Positions 2-47,391 of a DNA stretch of 64,000 bases are shown here, in pieces. Location of the stretch: NCBI RefSeq assembly GCF_024137965.1, contig NZ_CP099975.1, forward strand, positions 3,162,001 through 3,226,000, read 5' to 3'. Position 1 is the stretch's first letter. The number at the start of each line of letters is the position of its first letter. The translations under genes were made by a program, and so were the position numbers. This DNA comes from Halomonas sp. Y3 (lineage in GTDB: Bacteria; Pseudomonadota; Gammaproteobacteria; Pseudomonadales; Halomonadaceae). The notes beneath the pieces were generated by a model. That model was not told the DNA's origin. It ran no database searches and was given only the letters and a program-made list of their open reading frames with translations.

Positions 2-265
2 GTGCAGGTGCCCGGCGTGCTCCACGTCTCCCCGCCCAGCCACTCCATCAGCCTCTGCGTGCAGTTCGCGCCGGAGGTGGATGACCGGCGCGTCGCCAGC
101 CGCCTGCTGCAATCCCACCTCATCACCCGCCCGCTGAGCCCGGCCTGCGCCCCCGACGACCCGCGCAGCGGCCTGATCCTCGGCATCGGCATGCTCTCCG
201 GCAACACCCTGGCCAGCGAAGCGGTACGCCTGCGCCACGTGCTGACGCGCTGCCTGGGGAGCTGA
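2..265 (+). CDS. C-terminal end of a MocR/PdxR-type PLP regulator (partial)
   Basis: Only the last 87 codons are inside the window; the reading frame is open at the left edge, so the first codon shown is not a true start. The fragment resembles the end of a fold-type-I aminotransferase domain as found in MocR regulators (GntR-type DNA-binding domain fused to an aminotransferase-like domain). It has a GVLHVSPP strand, an acidic DD turn, a variable pocket segment ending in PLSPAC, then GLILGIGML and a final helix with AVRLRHVL. A free class I/II aminotransferase cannot be excluded because the N-terminal half is missing. Two direct repeats about 165 bases downstream (428-458) have the form MocR proteins often bind. 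Confidence 0.55.
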   Translation: MQVPGVLHVSPPSHSISLCVQFAPEVDDRRVASRLLQSHLITRPLSPACAPDDPRSGLILGIGMLSGNTLASEAVRLRHVLTRCLGS

Positions 266-279
266 CGCCCTGCCGCCCC

Positions 280-327
280 TCTGCCACGCCAGTGCCCCCC
301 TCTGCCACGCCAGTGCCCCCCTCTGCC
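280..327. repeat. 21-bp tandem repeat, two full copies and a start of a third
   Basis: TCTGCCACGCCAGTGCCCCC recurs with a period of exactly 21 bases (280-300 and 301-321), and a third unit begins with TCTGCC at 322. It directly follows the stop codon of the upstream gene. No coding sense was found. The period equals the spacing of the ATTGGTCCAT boxes further downstream, but the sequences are unrelated. Confidence 0.75.
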
Positions 328-427
328 CCACCCCGGCGGCTCGACCAAAGTTCCATGGACGCCCCTCATCCCCCTGAACACCCCGCCAGGCGTCCGTCAA
401 GGCACCACGGGCAGCCGCCGCGGCCCG

Positions 428-458
428 ATTGGTCCATTTCGACGCGGCATTGGTCCAT
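428..458. promoter_or_regulatory. Direct repeat ATTGGTCCAT x2, MocR-style operator candidate
   Basis: ATTGGTCCAT occurs at 428-437 and again, identically, at 449-458, a 21-bp repeat period or two helical turns. Direct repeats in the same face of the helix are the usual binding form for MocR/GabR-type regulators, and a gene of that type ends just upstream. This makes it a candidate operator for the downstream TRAP operon or for a transcript reading into it. The link is inference. Confidence 0.5.
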
Positions 459-488
459 AGGCCGGCCTTGTCGATGCTGCTAGCGTGC

Positions 489-577
489 CTTCCGTGCCTG
501 AGGTGAACGGAAGCCGCTGCGACAAGGCCGCGGCGCCCTTCCGAAGAGTGTTAGCAGGGTAAAAATACCGACGCTAA
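489..577. promoter_or_regulatory. Inverted repeats upstream of dctP
   Basis: Two separate dyads lie in the 469-base gap before dctP. CTTCCGT (489-495) pairs with ACGGAAG (507-513). Further on, TTAGC (551-555) pairs with GCTAA (573-577), enclosing a second dyad GGTA (558-561) with TACC (566-569). The stretch from about 550 to 640 is strikingly AT-rich against the GC-rich background, as expected of a promoter, but I could not fix a -10/-35 pair with confidence. Confidence 0.35.
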
Positions 578-734
578 ATATAGAAATAATGGGAAAATTT
601 CTATGGTCTGCATTTTTATCTTATGCTTAACTCGAACCACCGATGCACAATCGGCATCAAGGCTCGGACTCGCCGCCCGACAGCGAACAAGCAGACAACG
701 AACAATCCGAAGAACCGACCACCAAGAGGCCTCC

Positions 735-1754
735 ATGAAACTCTCCACCCTGTTCAAAGGCACCCTGACTACCTCGATCGCGGCATCCCTGATCGCCAGC
801 CAGCTGGCCTACGCCGACAACATCCGTCTGCGCATGCACACCTTCTACGGCACCGAGGTGGATTCGATCGCCGCCGACCTGCGCGACCGGCTGCAGGAGG
901 CCAGCGACGGCTCCATCCGCCTGCAGTTCTTCCGCGGCGGCGAGCTGGTCGACAGCGACCAGTTCGTGGATGCCGTGGCGCGCGGCACCATCGACATCGC
1001 CCACGGCGTCGGCAGCTACTGGCCGGGCCGCGTGGGCATCGGCACCATCGAGGGCGGCCTGCCGGGCGCCTGGGTCTCCGCCGACGAGGCCCGCGACATC
1101 TTCGCCAACCAGGGGCTGGACGAGCTGATCGCCGAGGCCTACGAGGAGCAGGGGGTCAAGCTGATCGGCCGCGGCTTCGGCAGCGATTATGGCCTGCTGA
1201 CCCGCGAACCGGTCACCAGCCTCGATGACCTGCGCTCCATGCGCATCCGCGCCACCAGCTCCATCGCCACCGTGCTGGAGCAGTTCGATGTTCCCACCGT
1301 GTTCCTGCCCGGCCAGGAGCTCTACGTGGCGCTCTCCACCGGCGTGATCGACGGCGCCGTCTACGGCGGCCCGGTGGAGTACGAGCAGCTCAAGCTGCAC
1401 GAGGTGGCCAAGCACTACACCGACATCAACCTGCTCAACCCGGGCTGGACCGAGAACGCGCTGATCAACCCGCGCACCTGGGAGCGCATGAGCGAGGAGC
1501 AGCAGACCATCCTGACCGAGGCGCTCGACCAGTACCTGCTCGACGTTCATCAGTGGCTGGAAGAGGGCAACCGCGCCGTGATCGAGGCGGGCGAGCTCTT
1601 CGAGATCGCCGAGCTGCCGGAAGAGGACTCCCGCCGCCTGGCCGAGGCCGCCTTGCCCATCTGGGAAGCCGAAGCCGAGAAGTCCGAGCGCAACGCACGC
1701 GCCGTGGAGATCCTGATCAACAACGCCATCGAACAGGGACGGATCAGTGAGTAA
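735..1754 (+). CDS. dctP: TRAP transporter solute-binding protein (DctP family)
   Basis: Encodes a 339-residue periplasmic binding protein that hands its ligand to the DctQM membrane pair, driven by an ion gradient. The start was set at the ATG giving MKLSTLFKG, because it opens a normal Sec signal peptide ending near SQLAYA|DN at residue 24; the open frame upstream is longer but not protein-like. DctP features include the GSYWPGR segment, RIRATSS after the hinge (the conserved arginine usually contacts a substrate carboxylate) and FLPGQELYVALSTGVIDGAVYG, the ALQTGVVDG-type motif of the family. The stop overlaps the start of dctQ by 8 bases. The substrate is unknown; a carboxylate is likely by family. 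Confidence 0.9.
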   Translation: MKLSTLFKGTLTTSIAASLIASQLAYADNIRLRMHTFYGTEVDSIAADLRDRLQEASDGSIRLQFFRGGELVDSDQFVDAVARGTIDIAHGVGSYWPGRVGIGTIEGGLPGAWVSADEARDIFANQGLDELIAEAYEEQGVKLIGRGFGSDYGLLTREPVTSLDDLRSMRIRATSSIATVLEQFDVPTVFLPGQELYVALSTGVIDGAVYGGPVEYEQLKLHEVAKHYTDINLLNPGWTENALINPRTWERMSEEQQTILTEALDQYLLDVHQWLEEGNRAVIEAGELFEIAELPEEDSRRLAEAALPIWEAEAEKSERNARAVEILINNAIEQGRISE

Positions 1755-2292
1755 TGTCACCCGCTACCTGAGGGTGCAGGATGGCCTTTCCGACTGGGTC
1801 GGGAGGGCTGTCTCCTGGCTGACGCTAGGGATCATCGGCGTGCTGCTGTACGAAGTGGTGGCGCGCTACCTGCTCAACGCCCCCACCGTGTGGGGGCACG
1901 AGCTCTCCACCATGTTCTTCGGCGCGCTGAGCATCCTCGCCGGCAGCTACACCCTCCGCCACCAGGGCCACGTCCGCAGCGACGTCGTCTACCGGCTGCT
2001 GCCCCCCAGGGGGCAGGCCTTCTGCGATGTGGTGATCTTCGTACTGGCGCTGGTGGTGCTGGCCGTGGTCTTCCGCATGGCGGTGGACTTCGCCTGGCAC
2101 GCCTGGCGCATCGGCGAGTTTTCCAACCGCAGCGTCTGGCGTCCGCCGCTCTGGCCGATCAAGGCTACCATCCCGCTCGCCGTGGGGCTGCTGATGCTGC
2201 AGTGCCTGGCCGAGCTGGTACGCGGCATGCTGCGCCTGGCCGGCGTCACCTACGACGACCCCCGCGAAGATCCCGACGACAGCAACTCCTGA
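1747..2292 (+). CDS. dctQ: TRAP transporter small permease (DctQ family)
   Basis: A 181-residue inner-membrane protein with four predicted hydrophobic segments (roughly residues 18-38, 48-70, 90-112 and 135-155), the normal topology of the small TRAP subunit. It begins with GTG and overlaps dctP by 8 bases, so translation is probably coupled. The motif WGHELSTMFFGALSILAGSYTLRHQGHVRSD matches the family pattern, in which a conserved E precedes a hydrophobic run ending in HVR(V/S)D. Its role is to dock the binding protein onto the large subunit. Confidence 0.88.
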   Translation: MSNVTRYLRVQDGLSDWVGRAVSWLTLGIIGVLLYEVVARYLLNAPTVWGHELSTMFFGALSILAGSYTLRHQGHVRSDVVYRLLPPRGQAFCDVVIFVLALVVLAVVFRMAVDFAWHAWRIGEFSNRSVWRPPLWPIKATIPLAVGLLMLQCLAELVRGMLRLAGVTYDDPREDPDDSNS

Positions 2293-2353
2293 CCCTGCGC
2301 CCGGGGCGGCTGCGTGCTCGGCCCCGAGGACACCTAATGACAAGAGCGTTCCT

Positions 2354-3673
2354 ATGGCTGAACTCGAGCCCCTGACAATTACCGCCATCATGTTTTTCTC
2401 CATGCTGGTGCTCATGGCGATGGGGGCCCCCCTGGCTCTGGCGCTGATGATCTCCGGCATGGGCAGCGCCTACCTCATGTTCGGTCCAGGCGGCCTGGAC
2501 CTGCTGCTGGCCTCGGCCTACAGCGCCATGGACAACTTCCTGCTGGTCTCCCTGCCACTGTTCATCTTCATGGGCCTGGTGCTCGAGAGGTCGGGCATCA
2601 CCGACGACCTCTTCGAGATGATCCACAAGTGGATGGGCGGCATCCCCGGCGGCCTCGGCGTGGGGACAGTGCTGATCTGCGCGCTGATCGCCGCCATGGC
2701 CGGCGTCTCCGGCGCCGCGACGGTGAGCCTCGGCATCATCGCCCTGCCCGCCATGCTCAAGCGCGGCTACCACAAGCGCCTGGTCACCGGCACCATCATG
2801 GCCGGCGGCGCCCTGGGCTTCCTGATTCCGCCCAGCGTGCTGATGATCGTCTATGCCTTCCTGGCCCGGGAGTCGGTGGGCAAGCTGTTCGCCGCGGGCC
2901 TGATGCCCGGGCTGATGCTGGCCGGCATCTACATGGCCTACGTGCTGATCCGCTGCCGGCTCAACCCGGCGCTGGGCCCCGCCACGCCCCCCGAGGATCG
3001 CTTCACGACCCGGGAGAAGCTGCAGTCCCTGCGCCACGTCGTGGCCCCCGGGCTGCTGGTGGTCACGGTACTCGGCTGCATCATCGGCGGGGTGACCTCG
3101 CCCTCCGAGGCCTCCGCCGTCGGCGCCGCCGGTGCCCTGGTGCTCACCGCCCTGCGCGGCAGGCTCGACTGGAAGCTGCTGCGCTACGTGATGCTCAGCA
3201 CCACCAGGATCACCGGCATGCTGATCTGGATCGCCATCGCCGCGGTCTTCTTCAGCCGCATCTACATGGGCCTGGGCGCCGGCATGGTGATCAGCGACCT
3301 GATCTACGACTACTCCCTGTCGCCCTACACGGTGATCCTCTTCATGCTCTTCAGCTTCTTCCTGCTGGGCATGTTCCTGGATGACTTCGCCATCCTCTTC
3401 ATCACCGTGCCGCTCTACATCCCCATCGTGCGCGAGCTCGGCTTCGACACCACCTGGTTCGCGGTGCTGTTCATCCTCAGCATGCAGTCCGCCTACCTGA
3501 CGCCCCCCTTCGGCTACAACCTCTTCTACATGCGGTCGGTGGCACCGAAGTCGATCACCATCGTCGACATCTACCGCTCCGCCCTGCCCTTCGTGGGCCT
3601 GCAGATCCTCGGCCTGGCGCTGATCGTGGCCTTCCCGGGCATCGCCCTGTGGCTGCCCAACCTGCTCTTCTAG
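2354..3673 (+). CDS. dctM: TRAP transporter large permease (DctM family)
   Basis: A 439-residue, highly hydrophobic protein with about 12 membrane segments. Family marks are PLFIFMGLVLERSGI near residue 60, GVSGAATVSLGIIALPAMLKRGY near 117-139, and GFLIPPSVLMIVYAFL near 155. A distal repeat of the inverted fold follows with TPPFGYNLFYMRSVAP near 380. It is the ion-coupled transport channel of the dctPQM operon. The gap after dctQ is 61 bases, which suggests the same transcript. A GC-rich hairpin follows the stop codon. Confidence 0.9.
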   Translation: MAELEPLTITAIMFFSMLVLMAMGAPLALALMISGMGSAYLMFGPGGLDLLLASAYSAMDNFLLVSLPLFIFMGLVLERSGITDDLFEMIHKWMGGIPGGLGVGTVLICALIAAMAGVSGAATVSLGIIALPAMLKRGYHKRLVTGTIMAGGALGFLIPPSVLMIVYAFLARESVGKLFAAGLMPGLMLAGIYMAYVLIRCRLNPALGPATPPEDRFTTREKLQSLRHVVAPGLLVVTVLGCIIGGVTSPSEASAVGAAGALVLTALRGRLDWKLLRYVMLSTTRITGMLIWIAIAAVFFSRIYMGLGAGMVISDLIYDYSLSPYTVILFMLFSFFLLGMFLDDFAILFITVPLYIPIVRELGFDTTWFAVLFILSMQSAYLTPPFGYNLFYMRSVAPKSITIVDIYRSALPFVGLQILGLALIVAFPGIALWLPNLLF

Positions 3674-3692
3674 CGCCATCTTCGGCACCATC

Positions 3693-3720
3693 GCGGGGGC
3701 CTGCCCGGCCCCCGCCCTTC
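3693..3720 (+). terminator. Hairpin after dctPQM
   Basis: GCGGGGGCC (3693-3701) pairs with GGCCCCCGC (3707-3715) around a 5-base loop, followed by a short pyrimidine tail rather than a true T-run. It lies 20 bases after the dctM stop. Confidence 0.5.
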
Positions 3721-3829
3721 GCCTGCCGCGGCGTCTTCTTCCTGCCACCAAAGCATCATCGAATCGACACTGGCAAAATCGCCGAAGAGACCCCATAGTG
3801 TGCATGTCGCAATCGCCCACTGGAGCATC

Positions 3830-25993: not shown

Positions 25994-27396
25994 CGGGCAT
26001 CTCCTTGGAGTGTCGGTTGGAATCTCGCCCCCGGGTACCGCCAGGCGATCAGCAGGCTCACCAGCGTGGAGGCGAGCAGCGCCCCCAGGAAGGGCGGAAG
26101 CGTCGGAATGCTCTCCGGGAAGGTGGCGGCGAGCACCCCGGCGGAGAGGCTCCCCAGGGTGATCCAGCCCGGCACGATCGCGCCGAGAAGACCCGCCACG
26201 CCGCCGGCCACCGCGGCGAGCGGCGACATGCGTCGCCACAGGCCCAGCAGCACCGGCAGCAGGATGGCCGCGCACAGGAGATCGGCGATCAGGAAGAGGC
26301 GCAGCACCGAGAAGCCCTGCAGCGCCACCCACACCACCGGCAGCATCAGCGCCACCGTGGCCAGGCGCGCCGCCCGCACCGAGAGACCGCGTAGGCCGGA
26401 GCTCGCCACCGCCATGGAGGCGATGGCGTTCTGCAGGGTATCGACGCTGGAGGCCACCAGGGTCACCGCCAGCACCAGGGCCGGCAGCGCCAGCCAGGCC
26501 GGCGCGGCGGAGAGCAGCGCGAAGAAGGGAATCGGCGGCTCGCCGAGCGGCAGCGCATGCATGGCCGCCACGATGCCGAGCCCGCCGATGGCCATCACCA
26601 CCAGCAGGCTGCTGGCCCCGCCCAGCAGGGCCCCACGGGCCAGGGCGCGGTCATCCTCGGCGGCCCACACCCGCTGCCAGTAGCCCTGATGGAAGAGGTT
26701 GGCCGCGGTGACGGCGATCACCAGGGTGAGCGCCACCGAGAGCGCGCTGCTCGTGGGAATCGAGGGCATCACGGCTTCGGCCGGCATGGGCGGCAGCCAC
26801 CACCAGGCCACGCCGCCCACCAGCACCAGCAGGGCCAGCAGCAGCCAGGCCTGCCAGCGGTCGGTGGCGAGGCTCGCCCGCAGCCCGCCCAGGGTGGTGT
26901 AGACCAGGGTGACCACCGCCACCCCGAGGATCACCAGCGCCGGCGGCACGTCGGAGAGCAGCGCGGCGATGGCGCCGATGGCGGTGAGCTCGGCGGCCAG
27001 GAAGATCGCCATGTAGGCCACCGAGACGAAGGAGACCCAGCGCCGCACCCCGGCGCCGTAGCAGGACTCCGCGAACTCGCCGATGCTGCGCCCCTGCGGC
27101 AGGTGGCGACGGATCGCCGGGCCGTAGAGCCCCAGCACGATAAAGGGCAGCGACGAGCCGATGGCGTAGCCGGCCAGCGCCACCGGCCCCACGAAGGCGC
27201 CGATCTCCGGCGGCGCGAAGAGGATCCAGGCCCCCATGCTGGAGGCCAGGAACGACAGGCCGATGGCCTGGGCGCCCTGGGAGTTGCGGGCGGTGACGTA
27301 GTCATCGAGCAGGCCATCGGCCCGGCGGGCCCGCAGGCCCAGGAAAGCAAAGCACAGAAGCGCCGCGCCGAGCACGGCAGACGTCAGGTAAGGCAT
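25990..27396 (-). CDS. Sodium:solute symporter under TPP riboswitch control
   Basis: A 468-residue SLC5-family transporter with about 13 membrane segments. Family marks are SSMGAWILFAPPEIGAFVG in the first repeat, FHQGYWQRVWAAEDDRALARGAL near residue 245, and the LASSVDTLQNAIASMAVASS segment where the sodium site lies. It is directly behind a TPP riboswitch and overlaps tenA by 4 bases, so a thiamine precursor such as hydroxymethylpyrimidine or a degradation product is the likely substrate. It resembles the ThiV/CytX role described for riboswitch-linked symporters. Confidence 0.85.
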   Translation of the reverse strand: MPYLTSAVLGAALLCFAFLGLRARRADGLLDDYVTARNSQGAQAIGLSFLASSMGAWILFAPPEIGAFVGPVALAGYAIGSSLPFIVLGLYGPAIRRHLPQGRSIGEFAESCYGAGVRRWVSFVSVAYMAIFLAAELTAIGAIAALLSDVPPALVILGVAVVTLVYTTLGGLRASLATDRWQAWLLLALLVLVGGVAWWWLPPMPAEAVMPSIPTSSALSVALTLVIAVTAANLFHQGYWQRVWAAEDDRALARGALLGGASSLLVVMAIGGLGIVAAMHALPLGEPPIPFFALLSAAPAWLALPALVLAVTLVASSVDTLQNAIASMAVASSGLRGLSVRAARLATVALMLPVVWVALQGFSVLRLFLIADLLCAAILLPVLLGLWRRMSPLAAVAGGVAGLLGAIVPGWITLGSLSAGVLAATFPESIPTLPPFLGALLASTLVSLLIAWRYPGARFQPTLQGDAR

Positions 27397-27402
27397 GTCG
27401 CG

Positions 27403-27488
27403 CTTCCTCCGCCGGTATGAACCGGATCAGGTTCCAGGGTCGGCGCTTGGCCCTCTCAGCCCCCGCGGATGCGGCGGGACTCCCCTGG
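27403..27488 (-). promoter_or_regulatory. TPP riboswitch (THI box)
   Basis: On the minus strand the order is GCCAGGGGAGTCCCG at the 5' end, then GGGGGCTGAGAGGGCC, GCGCCGACCC, GGAACCTGATCCGG and CATACCGGCGGAGGAAG. These are the conserved CTGAGA and ACCTGATC cores and the closing stem of the THI box. The Shine-Dalgarno GGAGGAA lies in the last stem, 8 bases from the symporter ATG, so ligand binding should block translation. Confidence 0.95.
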
Positions 27489-27660
27489 CGACAAGTGAAT
27501 GAGTTGTGTGGGCCCGCCGCTGTCGGTAACGCGACGGGCCGGAGGCATCATAGCGAGGCCATGGGCTGGCGGCCAGAGGCTACGGGGTCACCACTGACCA
27601 CCCGACCACGACGTTGGAGCCCTCTCGCGGCGAGACGATGTAAAAGCCACCCCTCTTGAT

Positions 27661-41033: not shown

Positions 41034-41044
41034 GGGTCAGACCC
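41034..41044. repeat. Palindrome GGGTCAGACCC at the left end of the IS cluster
   Basis: The palindrome (GGGTC, A, GACCC) occurs here and again at 44540-44550, at 46052-46062 and, with a central T, at 47371-47381. These are the four edges of the three insertion elements, so it acts as a shared target or target duplication. Confidence 0.8.
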
Positions 41045-41168
41045 GAATGGCACTTACTTAAGGGCTAAAAGAGGCGTAACCCCTTGATATAAATGAAAAC
41101 AGGCGTCGGATGAGGTATTGTGTAAGTCGCGAAACCACACACAACCCGCCAATCCAACGCCTGCTCTC

Positions 41169-42545
41169 ATGACCTATCCTACTGATCTGCTTCACCAATG
41201 CCAACAGCGGCGCGTCGCGCATCATGCCAACCGCCCGGGTCACACCGAGCTATACGCTCAACTCCACGCGACTTTCGCAGCTTCCGGCCTGGATCAAGCG
41301 CTGCCGGCTTGTCGCCATCGGCTCTTTCCGCCCATGGTCACGCTGGAGACATTCATCGCGCAAGTCCTGGGAGCCGACGGCTCTTGCCAGCAAGCCGTCA
41401 ACCGCCATCTCCTGACCTGGACACATCACCAGCAGGCCACGGCAAGCCCTCGTACGGGCGCCTACTGCCGGGCCCGGCAGCGACTGCCAGGCGATGTCAT
41501 CGCCGACCTGACACGTCATCTTGGCCATACCCTGGCAGCAAGTATGCCCGCAGCCAGAACCTGGCAAGGCCGGCCCATCAAGCTGATTGACGGCACCACC
41601 GTGTCGATGCCGGATACGCCCGAGAACCAGCAACGCTTCCCCCAGCCAGGTAGTCAGAAGCCCGGCCTGGGCTTTCCGATGGCGCGCCTGGTGGTCATCA
41701 TGGACATGAACAGCGGTGCGGTACTCAATGCCGCCATGGGTCCCTTGAAGGGCAAGGGGACGGGCGAGCATGCTCTGCTGCGGGAGATGCTCGACACCTT
41801 TGAGGCTGGAGACATCGTCATTGCGGATCGCTATTACCCGTCCTATGCCCTGGTCGCAGAACTGGCTGCCCGCGGTGTCGATGTGGTGATGCGCCAGCAC
41901 TTCCGACGCGAGACGGATTTTCAGGCCGGCGACCCGCTGGGGCACAAGGATCACATTGCGACGTGGGAGAAACCCAAGAATCGCCGTGACTGGATGAGCC
42001 AAGCGGCGTTCAACGCCTTGCCGACGACGCTGTCGATGAGGGAGCTGGCGGTTGGCGGTATGGTTCTGATCACGACATGCACCGACAGAGCGGTGCCCCG
42101 TCAGCAAATCCAGGAACTCTATCAGATGCGTTGGCAGGTGGAGCTGCGCCTGCGGGACATCAAGACGACCCTGGGCATGGACCGGCTACGCTGCAAGACG
42201 CCCGCCATGGTGGAAAAGGAGGTGTGGGTGTATCTGTTGGCCTACAACCTGATCCGCCGTGTGATGGTGGAAGCCAGTGACTGGGCAGACTGCTTGCCTC
42301 AGCACCTCAGCTTCAAGCATACGGTGCAGATGGTGCGGCAGATCGCGGCACGTTCGCCGCTTCACGATCATGAGCGCGCTTGCCTCATGAAACAGATCAC
42401 GACGCTTCGTGTGGGGCAGCGGCCGGGGCGGGTGGAGCCTAGAGCGCTAAAACGACGACCATCACCCCACCCGCTGTTGAAGACGCCGCGGCCAATAGCC
42501 CGAGAGCAAATCCGCCAGCATGGTCATCCGAAAAAGGTCGGGTAG
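41169..42545 (+). CDS. IS4-family transposase, copy 1
   Basis: A 458-residue DDE transposase; the start at MTYPTDLLHQC is used because the frame upstream begins with TTG inside the terminal region. The DDE residues are in LIDGTTVSMPDTPENQ (first Asp), DIVIADRYYPSYAL (second Asp) and YQMRWQVELRLRDIKTTLGM (Glu). The N-terminal region includes a DNA-binding part with RTGAYCRARQRLP. The gene ends KKVG because the intron changed the last two codons; copy 2 ends KKLK. The enzyme is otherwise intact and may be active. Confidence 0.92.
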   Translation: MTYPTDLLHQCQQRRVAHHANRPGHTELYAQLHATFAASGLDQALPACRHRLFPPMVTLETFIAQVLGADGSCQQAVNRHLLTWTHHQQATASPRTGAYCRARQRLPGDVIADLTRHLGHTLAASMPAARTWQGRPIKLIDGTTVSMPDTPENQQRFPQPGSQKPGLGFPMARLVVIMDMNSGAVLNAAMGPLKGKGTGEHALLREMLDTFEAGDIVIADRYYPSYALVAELAARGVDVVMRQHFRRETDFQAGDPLGHKDHIATWEKPKNRRDWMSQAAFNALPTTLSMRELAVGGMVLITTCTDRAVPRQQIQELYQMRWQVELRLRDIKTTLGMDRLRCKTPAMVEKEVWVYLLAYNLIRRVMVEASDWADCLPQHLSFKHTVQMVRQIAARSPLHDHERACLMKQITTLRVGQRPGRVEPRALKRRPSPHPLLKTPRPIAREQIRQHGHPKKVG

Positions 42546-42576
42546 ACCGGGCGATTACTCGACCCGGCCCCCCACA

Positions 42577-42609
42577 GAGCCGGACGTGCGCGATTAACGC
42601 ATCCGGCTC
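42577..42609 (-). ncRNA. Domain V of the group II intron
   Basis: On the minus strand GAGCCGGATGCG and CGCACGTCCGGCTC form the conserved 33-34-base hairpin of domain V. Domain VI (rich in GGGGGGCCGGG with a bulged A) follows to 42537. Domain V is the catalytic core of self-splicing. Confidence 0.85.
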
Positions 42610-42614
42610 TTCAA

Positions 42615-43931
42615 TCACCAGCTTCGCTGAAGGGTTCGTTGGTGCACAATCCTTGCCTTGGGTAACGGCAGGCGCTTGAGCAGCAGGTTGGCTTTATCCC
42701 ACGAGAAGCCTCCCCGTTGAGAGCGACGTCTCAGCCATTTGACCCAGATCCGTCGGGCCTGATCCACAAGCGCTTTCAGCGCTTCATAATTGCCTGTGAT
42801 GCCATAGTAGGCAAAGTGCCCCTTGACCTTCCGACATAGGTGGCGATGCTGGATCAGAAGGGGCTGGTGCCGATTCGCCCGGCACCAGACCGACAGGTGC
42901 CTCAAGGCTCGCTTGAGTCGATCCTTGGCCGTCTTCTGCTTGATAACCCAGTAACCGCGCCGGGACTTCCCCCAGTAGTGGGTGAAGCCCAGGAAGTCGA
43001 AGGTCTCGGCGCGCTGTCCACCGTGTGGCTGAAACCGTACCAGTCGGGTCTTGGCGGGGTGCAGGGTAAGGCCGAAGCGTGCAAAACGCCTGGGCAGTAC
43101 CTCCAGCACCTTGCGGGCTTCGGCTTCGTTGCTGAAGGCGAGCACGGCGTCGTCGGCAAACCTTACCTCGAACGCGCGTCCACGCAGGCGTGGCTTGACG
43201 TCTTTCTCAAACCACTCGTCCAGCACATAGTGCAGGTAGATATTCGCCAGTAAGGGGGATATCACACCCCCTTGCGGGCTTCCTACCTCACCTTTCTGCC
43301 ACTGCCCGGCCTCCAGGACTCCGGCCTTGAGCCACTTACCGATCAGGCGGAGGACGACACCGTCCTTCACTCGTTGCTGCAGAAACTCACGCAGGTGCCG
43401 ATGGTCGATCGTGTCGAAGAAGGCTTGGATGTCCAGGTCAATGACCCAGCCACCTCCCATCGACATCAAGCTCTCCCTCACCGTCTCGATCGCCTGGTGC
43501 GCCGAGCGTCCCGGCCGGAAGCCGTACGAGCCGTCCAGAAAGTCGTACTCGTAGAGCGGCTCCAGCAGGGCCACTACAGCACGCTGCAGGACCTTGTCTT
43601 CGAAGGTGGGGATGCCGATCGGCCGTGTGGTGCGCCCATCTCCCTTGGGGATATGGACACGCCGCACTGGCGGCGCCCGGTAGCAACCACTCTTGGCCGC
43701 TTCCAGCAACCGCTGGATATTGGCCTCGAAGTCGCGCGCGAAGTCGTCCGCCGTCTGGCCATCAATCCCGACGGCGCCATCACGGCGCGTCATCAGGTAG
43801 GCCGTCTTCAGCCACTGGGCATCGATATGATGCGCCAGTGACGTGAAGGCACGCTGCGGGAAGCACTCTGCCAGTGCTGCTATCCGCACTTGTTTCGTGG
43901 ACATGACCTCAGGTTCCTGTGCACCTGTCAT
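42615..43931 (-). CDS. ltrA: Group II intron reverse transcriptase/maturase
   Basis: A 438-residue multidomain protein; the ATG at 43931 (MTGAQEPEVM) follows GAGG at good spacing, and the earlier frame is intron RNA. RT motifs: GIDGQTADDF, RPIGIPTFEDKVLQRAV, SYGFRPGRSAHQAI, FFDTIDH, GSPQGGVISPLLANIYLH and the active-site RFADDAVLAF (FADD instead of YADD). Domain X for splicing follows (FLGFTHYWGKSRRG to HFAYYGITGNYEALKAL). There is no HNH endonuclease domain, as in group IIC-type enzymes. It binds the intron RNA, helps splicing and copies it at the target. Confidence 0.92.
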   Translation of the reverse strand: MTGAQEPEVMSTKQVRIAALAECFPQRAFTSLAHHIDAQWLKTAYLMTRRDGAVGIDGQTADDFARDFEANIQRLLEAAKSGCYRAPPVRRVHIPKGDGRTTRPIGIPTFEDKVLQRAVVALLEPLYEYDFLDGSYGFRPGRSAHQAIETVRESLMSMGGGWVIDLDIQAFFDTIDHRHLREFLQQRVKDGVVLRLIGKWLKAGVLEAGQWQKGEVGSPQGGVISPLLANIYLHYVLDEWFEKDVKPRLRGRAFEVRFADDAVLAFSNEAEARKVLEVLPRRFARFGLTLHPAKTRLVRFQPHGGQRAETFDFLGFTHYWGKSRRGYWVIKQKTAKDRLKRALRHLSVWCRANRHQPLLIQHRHLCRKVKGHFAYYGITGNYEALKALVDQARRIWVKWLRRRSQRGGFSWDKANLLLKRLPLPKARIVHQRTLQRSW

Positions 43932-44521
43932 GTTGCCCTCGTGCAGTTCTGATGATTGGCCGCCCCTTCCCTCCAGTGGGTCCCGTCGAGTCGGTTCCCC
44001 ACCTTCCCGGGTACTATGAGCGACTCCGACTCCCGCCCCTCCATCCGGCTGGCTCCTTGTCGTCGCCTGGCCGTACCCCCTGAGTGCCTGCTGTTTGCTT
44101 CCGGTACCGTCAGGCACGACAGCACCGGACCGGGAGCTTTCTCGGCAGGCAGCCCCATGCCTGTCGTCCTGGTTTTCGGAGGAGAAGGACGGGCCTCCCA
44201 GGTTCCTGGGAAACCCCTATATGAACATGCCCTGCTCTTCGACCCCGGCGGCCCGCATCCGCCAAGCCATAAGGCGGAGACGTTTTGCCTTCCATTCTTA
44301 AGACAATGTCGGCAGCCACGTTTCACAATTTCGGGGCTCTATCACACGGCCTGCTCACTCGCTGTGTACGCTTCGCAGCGGCGGTTGCCCGACACCACGC
44401 AACACTCGCTACCGGCTGGTGGCTAGCCTTGGCCGGGTGGGACTTGCACCCACTGGGTTTCATTTCATCCTTTCAGCTGTTTGACACTGCTTCCCGGATG
44501 ACCAGGCTTTCCCTGGCGCAC

Positions 44522-44568
44522 CTTAAGTAAGTGCCATTCGGGTCAGACCCGAATGGCACTTACTTAAG
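44522..44568. repeat. 47-bp perfect palindrome joining the two IS4 copies
   Basis: The right terminal repeat of copy 1 (CTTAAGTAAGTGCCATTC), GGGTCAGACCC in the centre, then the left terminal repeat of copy 2 (GAATGGCACTTACTTAAG). The arms are 23 bp around a single A. As RNA or single-stranded DNA it folds into one long stem. The intron starts right at its left edge. Confidence 0.92.
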
Positions 44569-46051
44569 GAATAGAGGAAGCGTAACTCCTTGATATAAAT
44601 GAAAACAGGCGAGGGATGAGGTATTGTGTAAGTCGCAAAACCACACACAAACCGCCAATCCAACGCCTGCTTTCATGACCTATCCTACTGATCTGCTTCA
44701 CCAATGCCAACAGCGCCGCGTCTCACAGCGTATCCGCCGCCCGGACCTCACCGAGCTGCGTGCTCAGCTCCATGCGGCCGGTGCCTCGTCAGGGCTCGAT
44801 GAGGCGCTGGCCACTGACCGGCACCGACTCTTCCCGCCGACGGCCACCCTGGAAACCTTTGTGTCGCAGGTGCTGGATGCTGATGGCTCCTGCCAGCAGG
44901 CCGTCAATCGCCTCATGCTGAACCGAGAGCGTCCCGGGAGTGTTCGCACCGGCGCTTACTGCCGCGCTCGCCAGCGCTTGCCGGGGACGGTGGTGGCTGA
45001 CCTGGCGCGGTACTTGGGTCGTTCGCTGGCCAAGGACGTTCCCTCTCGGTGGACGTGGCAGGGCCGGCCCATCAAGCTGATTGACGGGACGACCGTGTCG
45101 ATGCCGGATACGCCAGAGAACCAGCAGCAGTTCCCTCAACAAACCAGCCAGACACCTGGCCTCGGGTTCCCGGTCGCCCGGCTGGTAGCCATCATGGACC
45201 TGAGCAGTGGCGCGGTGCTCAACGCCGCCATGGGGCCAGTCAAAGGCAAGGGAACCGGCGAACATGCGTTGCTGCGGGGGATGCTCGACACCTTTGAGCC
45301 AGGCGACATTGTCATCGCCGACCGCTACTTCCCCGCCTATGCCCTCATCGCGGAACTGGCATCTCGCGGCGTCGATGTCGTGATGCGCCAGCATTTCGCC
45401 CGGAAGACCGACTTTCAGGCCGGCACGCCACTGGGGAAGAAGGATCATATAGCGACCTGGCAGAAGCCCAAGGCGCGCCACGCGTGGATGAGCCAGGAGG
45501 CTTTTAATGCCTTGCCTGAAAGCCTGCCAGTGCGGGAGCTGGCGGTAGGCGGTACGATCCTCATCACGACGCTATGCTCGGCGAAGCACGCCCCCCGACA
45601 GCAACTGCAAGCCCTCTACAAGGGTCGCTGGCAGATCGAGCTGAGTTTCCGCGACATCAAGACGACGCTGGGGATGGAGGTGTTGCGCTGCAAGACGCCC
45701 GCCATGGTGGAGAAGGAAGTCTGGGTGTATCTGCTGGCGTACAACCTGGTCCGTCGGGTGATGGCCGTCTCCAGCAAGTGGGCGGACTGCTTGCCACACC
45801 AGGTCAGTTTCAAGCACAGTGTGCAGCTTTTTAGGCAGATAGCGCCATGTTCGCCTCTAACAGAGGCAGAGTACCAGCGTGTGATGCAGCAGATGACGAC
45901 GATTCGGGTGGGTCAACGACCGGATCGGTTGGAGCCAAGAGCCATCAAGCGGCGACCTCGACCCCACCGGTTATTGCAAATGCCCCGCCACGAAGCACGT
46001 GAACAGATTCGCCAACACGGTCATCCGAAAAAGCTTAAGTAAGTACCATTC
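44551..46051 (+). mobile_element. IS4-family element, copy 2
   Basis: Left end GAATGGCACTTACTTAAG (44551), right end CTTAAGTAAGTACCATTC (46034-46051), 18-bp inverted repeats with one mismatch. It is complete, with one transposase gene. Copies 1 and 2 differ throughout at the DNA level, so they are relatives that arrived separately rather than a recent duplication. GGGTCAGACCC flanks it on both sides. Confidence 0.85.
44675..46042 (+). CDS. IS4-family transposase, copy 2
   Basis: A 455-residue DDE transposase starting MTYPTDLLHQCQQRR, clearly diverged from copy 1 but the same family. Catalytic context: KLIDGTTVSMPDTPENQ, DIVIADRYFPAYALI, and YKGRWQIELSFRDIKTTLGMEVL. It ends HPKKLK, the native ending, in the terminal repeat itself. 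No frameshift is visible. Confidence 0.92.
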   Translation: MTYPTDLLHQCQQRRVSQRIRRPDLTELRAQLHAAGASSGLDEALATDRHRLFPPTATLETFVSQVLDADGSCQQAVNRLMLNRERPGSVRTGAYCRARQRLPGTVVADLARYLGRSLAKDVPSRWTWQGRPIKLIDGTTVSMPDTPENQQQFPQQTSQTPGLGFPVARLVAIMDLSSGAVLNAAMGPVKGKGTGEHALLRGMLDTFEPGDIVIADRYFPAYALIAELASRGVDVVMRQHFARKTDFQAGTPLGKKDHIATWQKPKARHAWMSQEAFNALPESLPVRELAVGGTILITTLCSAKHAPRQQLQALYKGRWQIELSFRDIKTTLGMEVLRCKTPAMVEKEVWVYLLAYNLVRRVMAVSSKWADCLPHQVSFKHSVQLFRQIAPCSPLTEAEYQRVMQQMTTIRVGQRPDRLEPRAIKRRPRPHRLLQMPRHEAREQIRQHGHPKKLK

Positions 46052-46061
46052 GGGTCAGACC

Positions 46062-47371
46062 CTGAGGCCTCCCCACGAATCATACGGTGACCGCCCGTTC
46101 GGCTTCTTGTCGCATCAGCCGGAGGAGCCTGTCCATTCGGCCCGCTGGATAGCGGGCCAGAATGGCTTCGCAGCCAAGCCGCCACAGCGAGAGGCTACGC
46201 CGTGATCGGCGCGTGTTGCTCTGATAGGCCGGCGCCTTCCCCGCTTGATCGAGGGATAAGCCGCTAGCCAGGAGTCGAAAGCTAGCCAGCATGGCGATGA
46301 GCAGCAGGATCTCGATGCGGCGTGCGCATCGGGTGCCATGCAAGTTGAAGGCAAATCCGAAGCGCTCACTCTTGATATCCCGAAACCCTTCCTCGATTTC
46401 CATGCGCCTGCTGTAGAGCTGTACGACCTTGGCGGCGGTATGGTGGCGGGGTGTCAGATTACTGACCAGCACCCAGGGTTCTCGATGCCCCTTGGCCACC
46501 TTGCGGCTTCGAGCGGCGCGTGACGCCCTGCCGTTCTTGTTGCGGTCTTTGCGCCCTCGGTAGGGGGCGCGGTACAGGTACAGGTGGGTCGCCAGTGACC
46601 GTGTCTTGGCCAGTGTGACGGAACCGCGCGCTGCTGGTTCGCGTGTCGCCAGCGGAAACAGTGATTCCAGGCGGCGCCAGTCGGATTCACCGTCGTGCCT
46701 CAGTTGAGTTGCCCCACGCACCCGGCCGACGTAGTACCAACCATACGCCTCGACAGCCCGTAACCAGGGCGTCTTGAAGCCGGCATCGGTGACCAGAATC
46801 GGCGTGGTCTGCGGCGGCAACATCCACGCCAGGTCAGCGAGGAGTGCTTTCTGACAACGGGGGCAGGCGTCCTTGTGGTGCACACGTTCATAGATCGGAA
46901 ACGATCGCTTCCCGAAGGGGATCGCGGCACGCAGCAAAAAATGCTGCCCGCGGTCGTCGATCGGTGACCAATCGACTAGGATCACCGGATATCGCTGAGT
47001 GCCTACCAGCTGGCGAGCGACGTCCGCATAGAGCCATCGCCGCTCACGTTGCAAGTGAGGGTTGCCCAACAAACGATCGACACACTTGATCGCGTGCTTG
47101 GGCTTCGCCTGGCGCGGGAGCTGACGGCCGATTGCCGTCAGGGACAGCCGTTGCCCCATCAATAATGCCTCGACGCAGGTGGCCAGGGCATTGAAGCGTG
47201 TGGCATGCAGCAGGGAGGCTGAAGTCATCAGAATCTTGTGCAAGAATCGGGATGTCTGCATGGGCTCCTCGGCATATTGTTGGTTTGGCGATTAACAACA
47301 TGCCTGCCCATGCAGACTTTTTTCAACCCTAATATTCTGATTTCCCTATGTTATTCGTGGGGAGGCCTCAG
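46062..47371 (-). mobile_element. IS10-like element (IS4 family)
   Basis: Terminal inverted repeats CTGAGGCCTCCCCACGAAT at 46062-46080 and its complement at 47353-47371 (19 bp, perfect). The CTGA tip is that of IS10. The 9-bp flanks are GGTCAGACC (left) and GGTCTGACC (right), which match apart from the centre base, and each lies in a GGGTCNGACCC palindrome. Confidence 0.88.
46080..47261 (-). CDS. IS10-like transposase
   Basis: A 393-residue DDE transposase that follows the IS10 plan: LLHATRFNALATCVEALLMGQRLSLTAIGRQLPRQAKPKHAIKCVDRLLGNPHLQRER at the N-terminus, VILVDWSPIDDR (first Asp), PILVTDAGFKTPWL (second Asp) and YSRRMEIEEGFRDIKSERFGF (Glu). GAGGAG precedes the ATG. It is intact and may be active. 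It points away from the dctM gene beside it. Confidence 0.92.
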   Translation of the reverse strand: MQTSRFLHKILMTSASLLHATRFNALATCVEALLMGQRLSLTAIGRQLPRQAKPKHAIKCVDRLLGNPHLQRERRWLYADVARQLVGTQRYPVILVDWSPIDDRGQHFLLRAAIPFGKRSFPIYERVHHKDACPRCQKALLADLAWMLPPQTTPILVTDAGFKTPWLRAVEAYGWYYVGRVRGATQLRHDGESDWRRLESLFPLATREPAARGSVTLAKTRSLATHLYLYRAPYRGRKDRNKNGRASRAARSRKVAKGHREPWVLVSNLTPRHHTAAKVVQLYSRRMEIEEGFRDIKSERFGFAFNLHGTRCARRIEILLLIAMLASFRLLASGLSLDQAGKAPAYQSNTRRSRRSLSLWRLGCEAILARYPAGRMDRLLRLMRQEAERAVTV

Positions 47372-47391
47372 GGTCTGACCCCGAGGGGAGC

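Follow-up and report, generated by a model that had tools for sequence, protein, structure and literature searches.

Group II introns that are carried by insertion sequences (IS) and spread by retrohoming are already known. The available text of one Sinorhizobium meliloti study describes two of them (PMC5894124). RmInt2 is endonuclease-minus and uses the inverted repeats of ISRm17 as targets. RmInt1 is endonuclease-minus and multicopy, has ISRm2011-2 as its main home and occupies ectopic sites with similar intron-binding sites (IBS). In the Thermosynechococcus TeI introns, according to the cited part of PMC2882425, divergence of the exon-binding sites (EBS) gives new targets, and some insertions lie in IS. 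The cited part of PMC3522654 describes recent proliferation of E.c.I4 into IS3 elements of Escherichia coli. Here, we describe an intron that shares these traits. It occupies the minus strand of positions 42537–44521 in a 64,000 nucleotide stretch of Halomonas sp. Y3 DNA (contig NZ_CP099975.1; hereafter the window, to which all coordinates refer), inside an IS4-family element. Judged by sequence comparison, it is very probably an active group II intron that is present in several copies, lacks an endonuclease domain and recognises its exons in the IIB manner. It would retrohome by EBS1, EBS2 and EBS3 pairing, and a 47 bp palindrome beside it would be irrelevant to target choice.

The locus also differs from these systems. 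RmInt2 uses left and right repeats, whereas the Halomonas intron occupies right ends only, as IBS3 predicts; RmInt2 is related to class D (PMC5894124). RmInt1 is said to block the spread of its IS, whereas the transposase hosting the Halomonas intron loses two residues only (PMC5894124). The TeI4h intron-encoded protein (IEP) has an endonuclease domain but the Halomonas IEP has none (PMC2882425). E.c.I4 is hosted by IS3 rather than IS4; the likeness concerns IS hosting (PMC3522654). A search of the literature on group II introns and Halomonas, judged by titles and the starts of abstracts, found no description of this intron.

The intron is complete. It spans 1985 bp, reads GTGCG...CCCGAC and comes from a Halomonas-like bacterium. 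The hallmarks of a mobile group II intron are all present: GUGYG...AY ends, domains V and VI, and a reverse transcriptase-maturase gene in domain IV. Rfam model RF02005 (domains I–IV) matches the minus strand at 44446–44233 (158.6 bits, gathering threshold 49). Model RF00029 (domains V and VI) matches 42611–42537 (41.9 bits, threshold 40), and this match ends exactly at the proposed 3′ end. The IEP (42615–43904, minus strand) has 429 residues with reverse transcriptase and maturase regions; TIGR04416 matches up to residue 394 with 346.8 bits, above its cut-off. RVT_1 is the sole Pfam match, and there is no endonuclease domain. The reverse transcriptase motif is FADD rather than YADD in 45 of 46 locus readings, including loci L010–L026 and the copies of this genome, although many readings duplicate sequences; L027 has YADD. 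Replacement of YADD by FADD is reported for ORF (open reading frame) group g2 of Toro and Martinez-Abarca in the cited part of PMC3552965.

Insertion was exact. The intron sits precisely between AAAAAG and CTTAAG of the IS4-family copy. This joint is established by an intron-free copy of the same IS type elsewhere in the genome (L072; AAAAAGCTTAAGTAAG), which has AAAAAG|CTTAAG and matches the window copy at every position over 1428 bp. Both intron ends are common to seven near-identical copies. The insertion point lies six codon letters ahead of the transposase stop. The transposase ends HPKKLK in the empty copy and HPKKVG in the window. Intron and transposase gene run in opposite directions, and both inverted repeats are retained. 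On exact insertion, and on a change confined to the last two transposase residues, the original prediction was correct.

To assess target recognition, 33 distinct 5′ exons were compared with their own attached introns. EBS1 could be read in 31; L048 and L051 were left out of this count because their alignments stop short of it. Permutations used 16 intron types as units; the rows are related and residual kinship remains. EBS1 pairs with the last six exon bases at all six positions in 28 of 31 rows and at five of six in the other three. Averaged by intron type, 5.81 of 6 pairs form compared with 2.80 after permutation (0 of 5000 permutations). In the window, EBS1 is CUUAAG at intron nucleotides 220–225 (44297–44302, minus strand), within the loop of the Rfam D1D4-6 helix, where the original prediction had placed it. 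It forms six of six pairs with IBS1, CTTAAG, in the 5′ exon (44522–44527, minus strand).

The remaining contacts were assigned similarly. Bases that follow CGAAA in domain I pair with exon positions −13 to −8, with a mean of 3.52 compared with 2.40 (0 of 5000 permutations). Seven other registers were matched by 260 to 3804 of 5000 permutations, and none was significant at 1%. Hence, EBS2 is UUGUG at intron nucleotides 194–198 (44324–44328, minus strand) and IBS2 lies at 44529–44534 (minus strand), with three of six pairs at the window site. EBS3 is the base after GUC in GUC(G/A)AAGAGC. In 20 of 21 rows it is G before a 3′ exon starting with C and A before one starting with T. The window has EBS3 G (44240) and IBS3 C (42536), both on the minus strand. 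Since EBS1, EBS2 and EBS3 pairings are all found, recognition is of the IIB type.

The genome holds seven full-length introns with 99.85 to 100% identity, plus two fragments (L008 and L009). Their IBS1 sequences are CTTAAG (three sites), CTTGAG (three) and CTTAGG (one), all with six of six pairs when G-U is allowed. EBS2 pairing at these sites is three to five of six, and all seven 3′ exons begin with C. Three copies lie in right ends of host IS elements (L001, which is the window copy, L002 and L007), and the two IS types involved are about 76% identical. The other four are outside the host IS. Of these, L004 and L006 lie in copies of an interspersed inverted-repeat element, at the 3′ end; an empty copy of it reads CCTTGAG|CCGG. 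L003 splits a dctM-like TRAP transporter gene (locus positions 616–1500) in the antisense direction. L005 is intergenic, upstream of an EAL/GGDEF gene. The sense strand is on the lagging-strand template in five of seven copies (p = 0.23), and we claim no replication bias.

The interspersed inverted-repeat element (L004, L006 and L079–L098) has arms GGCGCCGGGG.CAGGTC and GGCCTGTC.CCGG. It gives 26 partial or whole matches in the genome, and some copies are longer through an additional internal segment of some 85 bp.

Left and right IS ends offer a natural comparison. The left inner ends read CTTAAG|G in nine of nine cases. They share IBS1 and IBS2 with the right ends, while the G is mismatched to EBS3, and none of the nine is filled. 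Right ends read CTTAAG|C and three of nine are filled. This pattern fits a role for IBS3 in the choice between ends, though the numbers are too few for proof.

The host element has the marks of the IS4 family: a DDE transposase above the NF033592 cut-off, 18 bp inverted repeats and 11 bp direct repeats. All of its features are on the plus strand. An 11 bp direct repeat, GGGTCAGACCC (41034–41044), lies left of copy 1 and is followed by its left inverted repeat (IRL), GAATGGCACTTACTTAAG (41045–41062). Its transposase (41118–42545; 234.1 bits) takes its last two residues from the intron, outside which lies the right inverted repeat (IRR; 44522–44539). A shared direct repeat (44540–44550) leads into the IRL of copy 2 (44551–44568). 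Copy 2 has an intron-free transposase (44624–46042; NF033592, 245.4 bits) and an empty IRR (46034–46051), with a direct repeat to its right (46052–46062). The palindrome consists of the IRR of copy 1 (18 bp), GGGTCAGACCC (11 bp) and the IRL of copy 2 (18 bp). It is no separate feature but the product of two IS copies in tandem. As DNA, 44522–44568 folds with −24.9 kcal/mol, as good in 0 of 200 shuffles.

Among nine near-full IS copies, the direct repeats are an exact pair in seven and differ by one base in two. GGGTCWGACCC is the repeat on both sides of six copies; variants flank L071, L072 and one side of L073. The motif occurs four times in the window (41034–41044, 44540–44550, 46052–46062 and 47371–47381) compared with 0.04 expected. 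It seems that this palindrome is chosen as a target by the IS4 element. IS elements that target repetitive extragenic palindromes are known (PMC1525189, in the part cited). A different IS4-family transposase (46080–47261; NF033591) lies between AGGCCTC(A)GGGTCWGACC copies (region 46052–47381), and IS copy 2 seems to have been placed at the end of that element. Elsewhere in the window, a thiamine pyrophosphate riboswitch matches the minus strand at 27386–27496 (59.6 bits).

The original prediction was that the intron seems to target an IS terminal hairpin. Such an intron would recognise a hairpin in the 5′ exon, as class C introns do at terminators or attC sites. We folded the last 60 and 130 nucleotides of 34 5′ exons, with GC correction against windows from the same flanks, and 120 nucleotides across 19 joined empty sites. 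The window exon is the strongest hairpin of the 34 (z = −10.4 at 60 nucleotides), a single extreme; no background window reaches −5. Its z at 130 nucleotides is −7.7, or −5.4 where background windows overlapped the sites, which accounts for the smaller value. Some observations weigh against recognition by pairing without a hairpin. At 60 nucleotides, z falls below −2 in three of 34 exons (L001, L025 at −3.2 and L011 at −2.5) compared with 1.04 expected from 3883 background windows. The 130-nucleotide folds put L007, L025, L026 and L040 below −2 as well. L004 and L006 directly follow the 3′ arm of the long inverted-repeat element. Pairing between EBS2 and IBS2 is no better than three of six at IS sites, and L018/L034 is the sole EBS3 exception (3′ exon C, EBS3 A). 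The available text of PMC7923331 also describes Halorhodospira, in which class E introns are preceded by attC-like structures; like the Halomonas intron, those introns are of the IIB type, come from halophiles, lack an endonuclease and lie near inverted repeats. They are 5′-truncated, whereas for the Halomonas intron hairpins show no influence on site use. In three of the nine IS right ends, a strong hairpin lies within 60 nucleotides before the site: L001 (−25.4 kcal/mol) is filled, but L069 (−21.9), a tandem junction like that of L001 except for one G-T, and L068 (−18.6) are empty. The other six lack a strong hairpin (−5.0 to −9.8); L002 and L007 are filled, and L066, L067, L070 and L072 are empty. 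Hence, ends are filled equally often with a hairpin (one of three) and without (two of six). Two of the three IS-borne copies, L002 and L007, are without the 47 bp palindrome, and four of seven copies are outside the host IS altogether. Copies at unrelated sites, which the original prediction named as its refutation, thus occur in the same genome. In the 120 nucleotide folds of the 19 joined sites, L001 alone is below −2 (mean z 0.11). The 27 60-nucleotide exons from other genomes have a mean GC-corrected z of 0.05. Without that correction they fold less than their flanks (median fraction 0.85), which we put down to base composition. Class C introns follow the rule of CGC as domain V triad (PMC7923331, in the part cited), lack an EBS2-IBS2 contact and have a hairpin upstream of IBS1. 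Here, the first triad is AGC, EBS2 is present and 5′ exons show no general excess of folding. We therefore rejected the hairpin as a target signal and consider it highly improbable.

Two further accounts concern how the copies arose. If the IS and intron move as a unit, some copies would stem from IS transposition with the intron inside, not from retrohoming. Intron-bearing IS of one type do occur at two places with different flanks (the window and L007/L073); their cores are identical, both inverted repeats are present and the transposase is nearly intact. However, L072, the one other copy of that type, has just as identical a sequence and carries no intron, and therefore two independent insertions are as good an account. 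In addition, the direct repeats of L007 are one base apart, and joint movement does not explain L002, in the other IS type, or the four copies outside the host IS. Joint transposition is thus an unlikely, if conceivable, source of some copies. A dead relic with no current activity is far less credible still. The IEP of L007 is frameshifted by a two-base and a one-base deletion and truncated to 231 residues, and L008 and L009 are fragments. Against this, the IEP is open in six of seven copies, and five copies are identical across 1985 bp, with a sixth differing by one base, at unrelated sites.

Retrohoming by EBS pairing remains the preferred explanation. An RNA-protein particle would reverse-splice into DNA via EBS1-IBS1 (6 bp), EBS2-IBS2 (3 to 5 bp) and EBS3-IBS3 (1 bp). 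One good target would be the inner edge of the IRR of the resident IS4-family element, CTTACTTAAG|CTTTTT, with further targets scattered. At the IS end, the intron would lie antisense in the strip between transposase stop and inverted repeat, and the palindrome formed by tandem IS copies would play no part. Splicing, reverse splicing and priming at replication forks would be the steps behind what the sequence itself displays, namely exact insertion, seven copies, EBS/IBS covariation and sites with and without hairpins.

We also searched for relatives. At E ≤ 0.001, 29 of 90 genus genomes and 55 of 275 family genomes contain DNA matches, many of which are fragments. Named relatives (19 loci) are chiefly from Halomonas and allied genera. 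Of the many flanking ORFs, 20 were scanned for IS families, and the scan is no count of the IS-borne share. Transposases above NCBIfam cut-offs flank L011 (104 bp from the intron site), L014, L016, L017, L041 and L044, plus a neighbour of L030. The associations are with IS256 (L016; L015 and L020 by similarity), IS1380 (L017, about 40 bp inside the IS end; L025, L047 and others by similarity), IS110 (L041 and L010), IS21 (L030 inside the transposase gene; L044 upstream of one) and IS5 (L014). An IS630 match at L062 is below the cut-off, and L022 has a weak IS3 match only. Some relatives are at non-IS sites, and L019 is beside a tyrosine recombinase. The relatives in or beside IS256, IS1380, IS110 and IS21 carry altered EBS. 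L011–L014 have flanks that differ, yet the roughly 20 bases ahead of the intron, CGCTCGCCGACTTTTCAGA, are common to all four. The L020 relative is on a 3351-base contig filed as Scrofimicrobium canadense, reflecting contamination or transfer.

The intron was also proposed to ride on IS without harming them. For the host IS this is plausible, given the antisense position of the intron in the gap that separates transposase stop and IRR. It is not general; L003 splits dctM and L030 is inside an IS21 transposase gene. We tentatively raise the less probable idea that one Halomonadaceae intron lineage has become a specialist of the non-coding strips at IS ends. It would switch between IS families through changes in EBS1, EBS2 and EBS3 and leave the transposase nearly whole, and travel as an IS-intron composite may add a second route of spread. 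The analysis removes the tempting but wrong idea of a hairpin-seeking IIB intron. In its place stands a natural series: one intron lineage whose 16 EBS types match their targets across several IS families. Together with nine examples of one IS end within one genome, some occupied and some vacant, this series makes both the rules of targeting and the burden on the IS testable.

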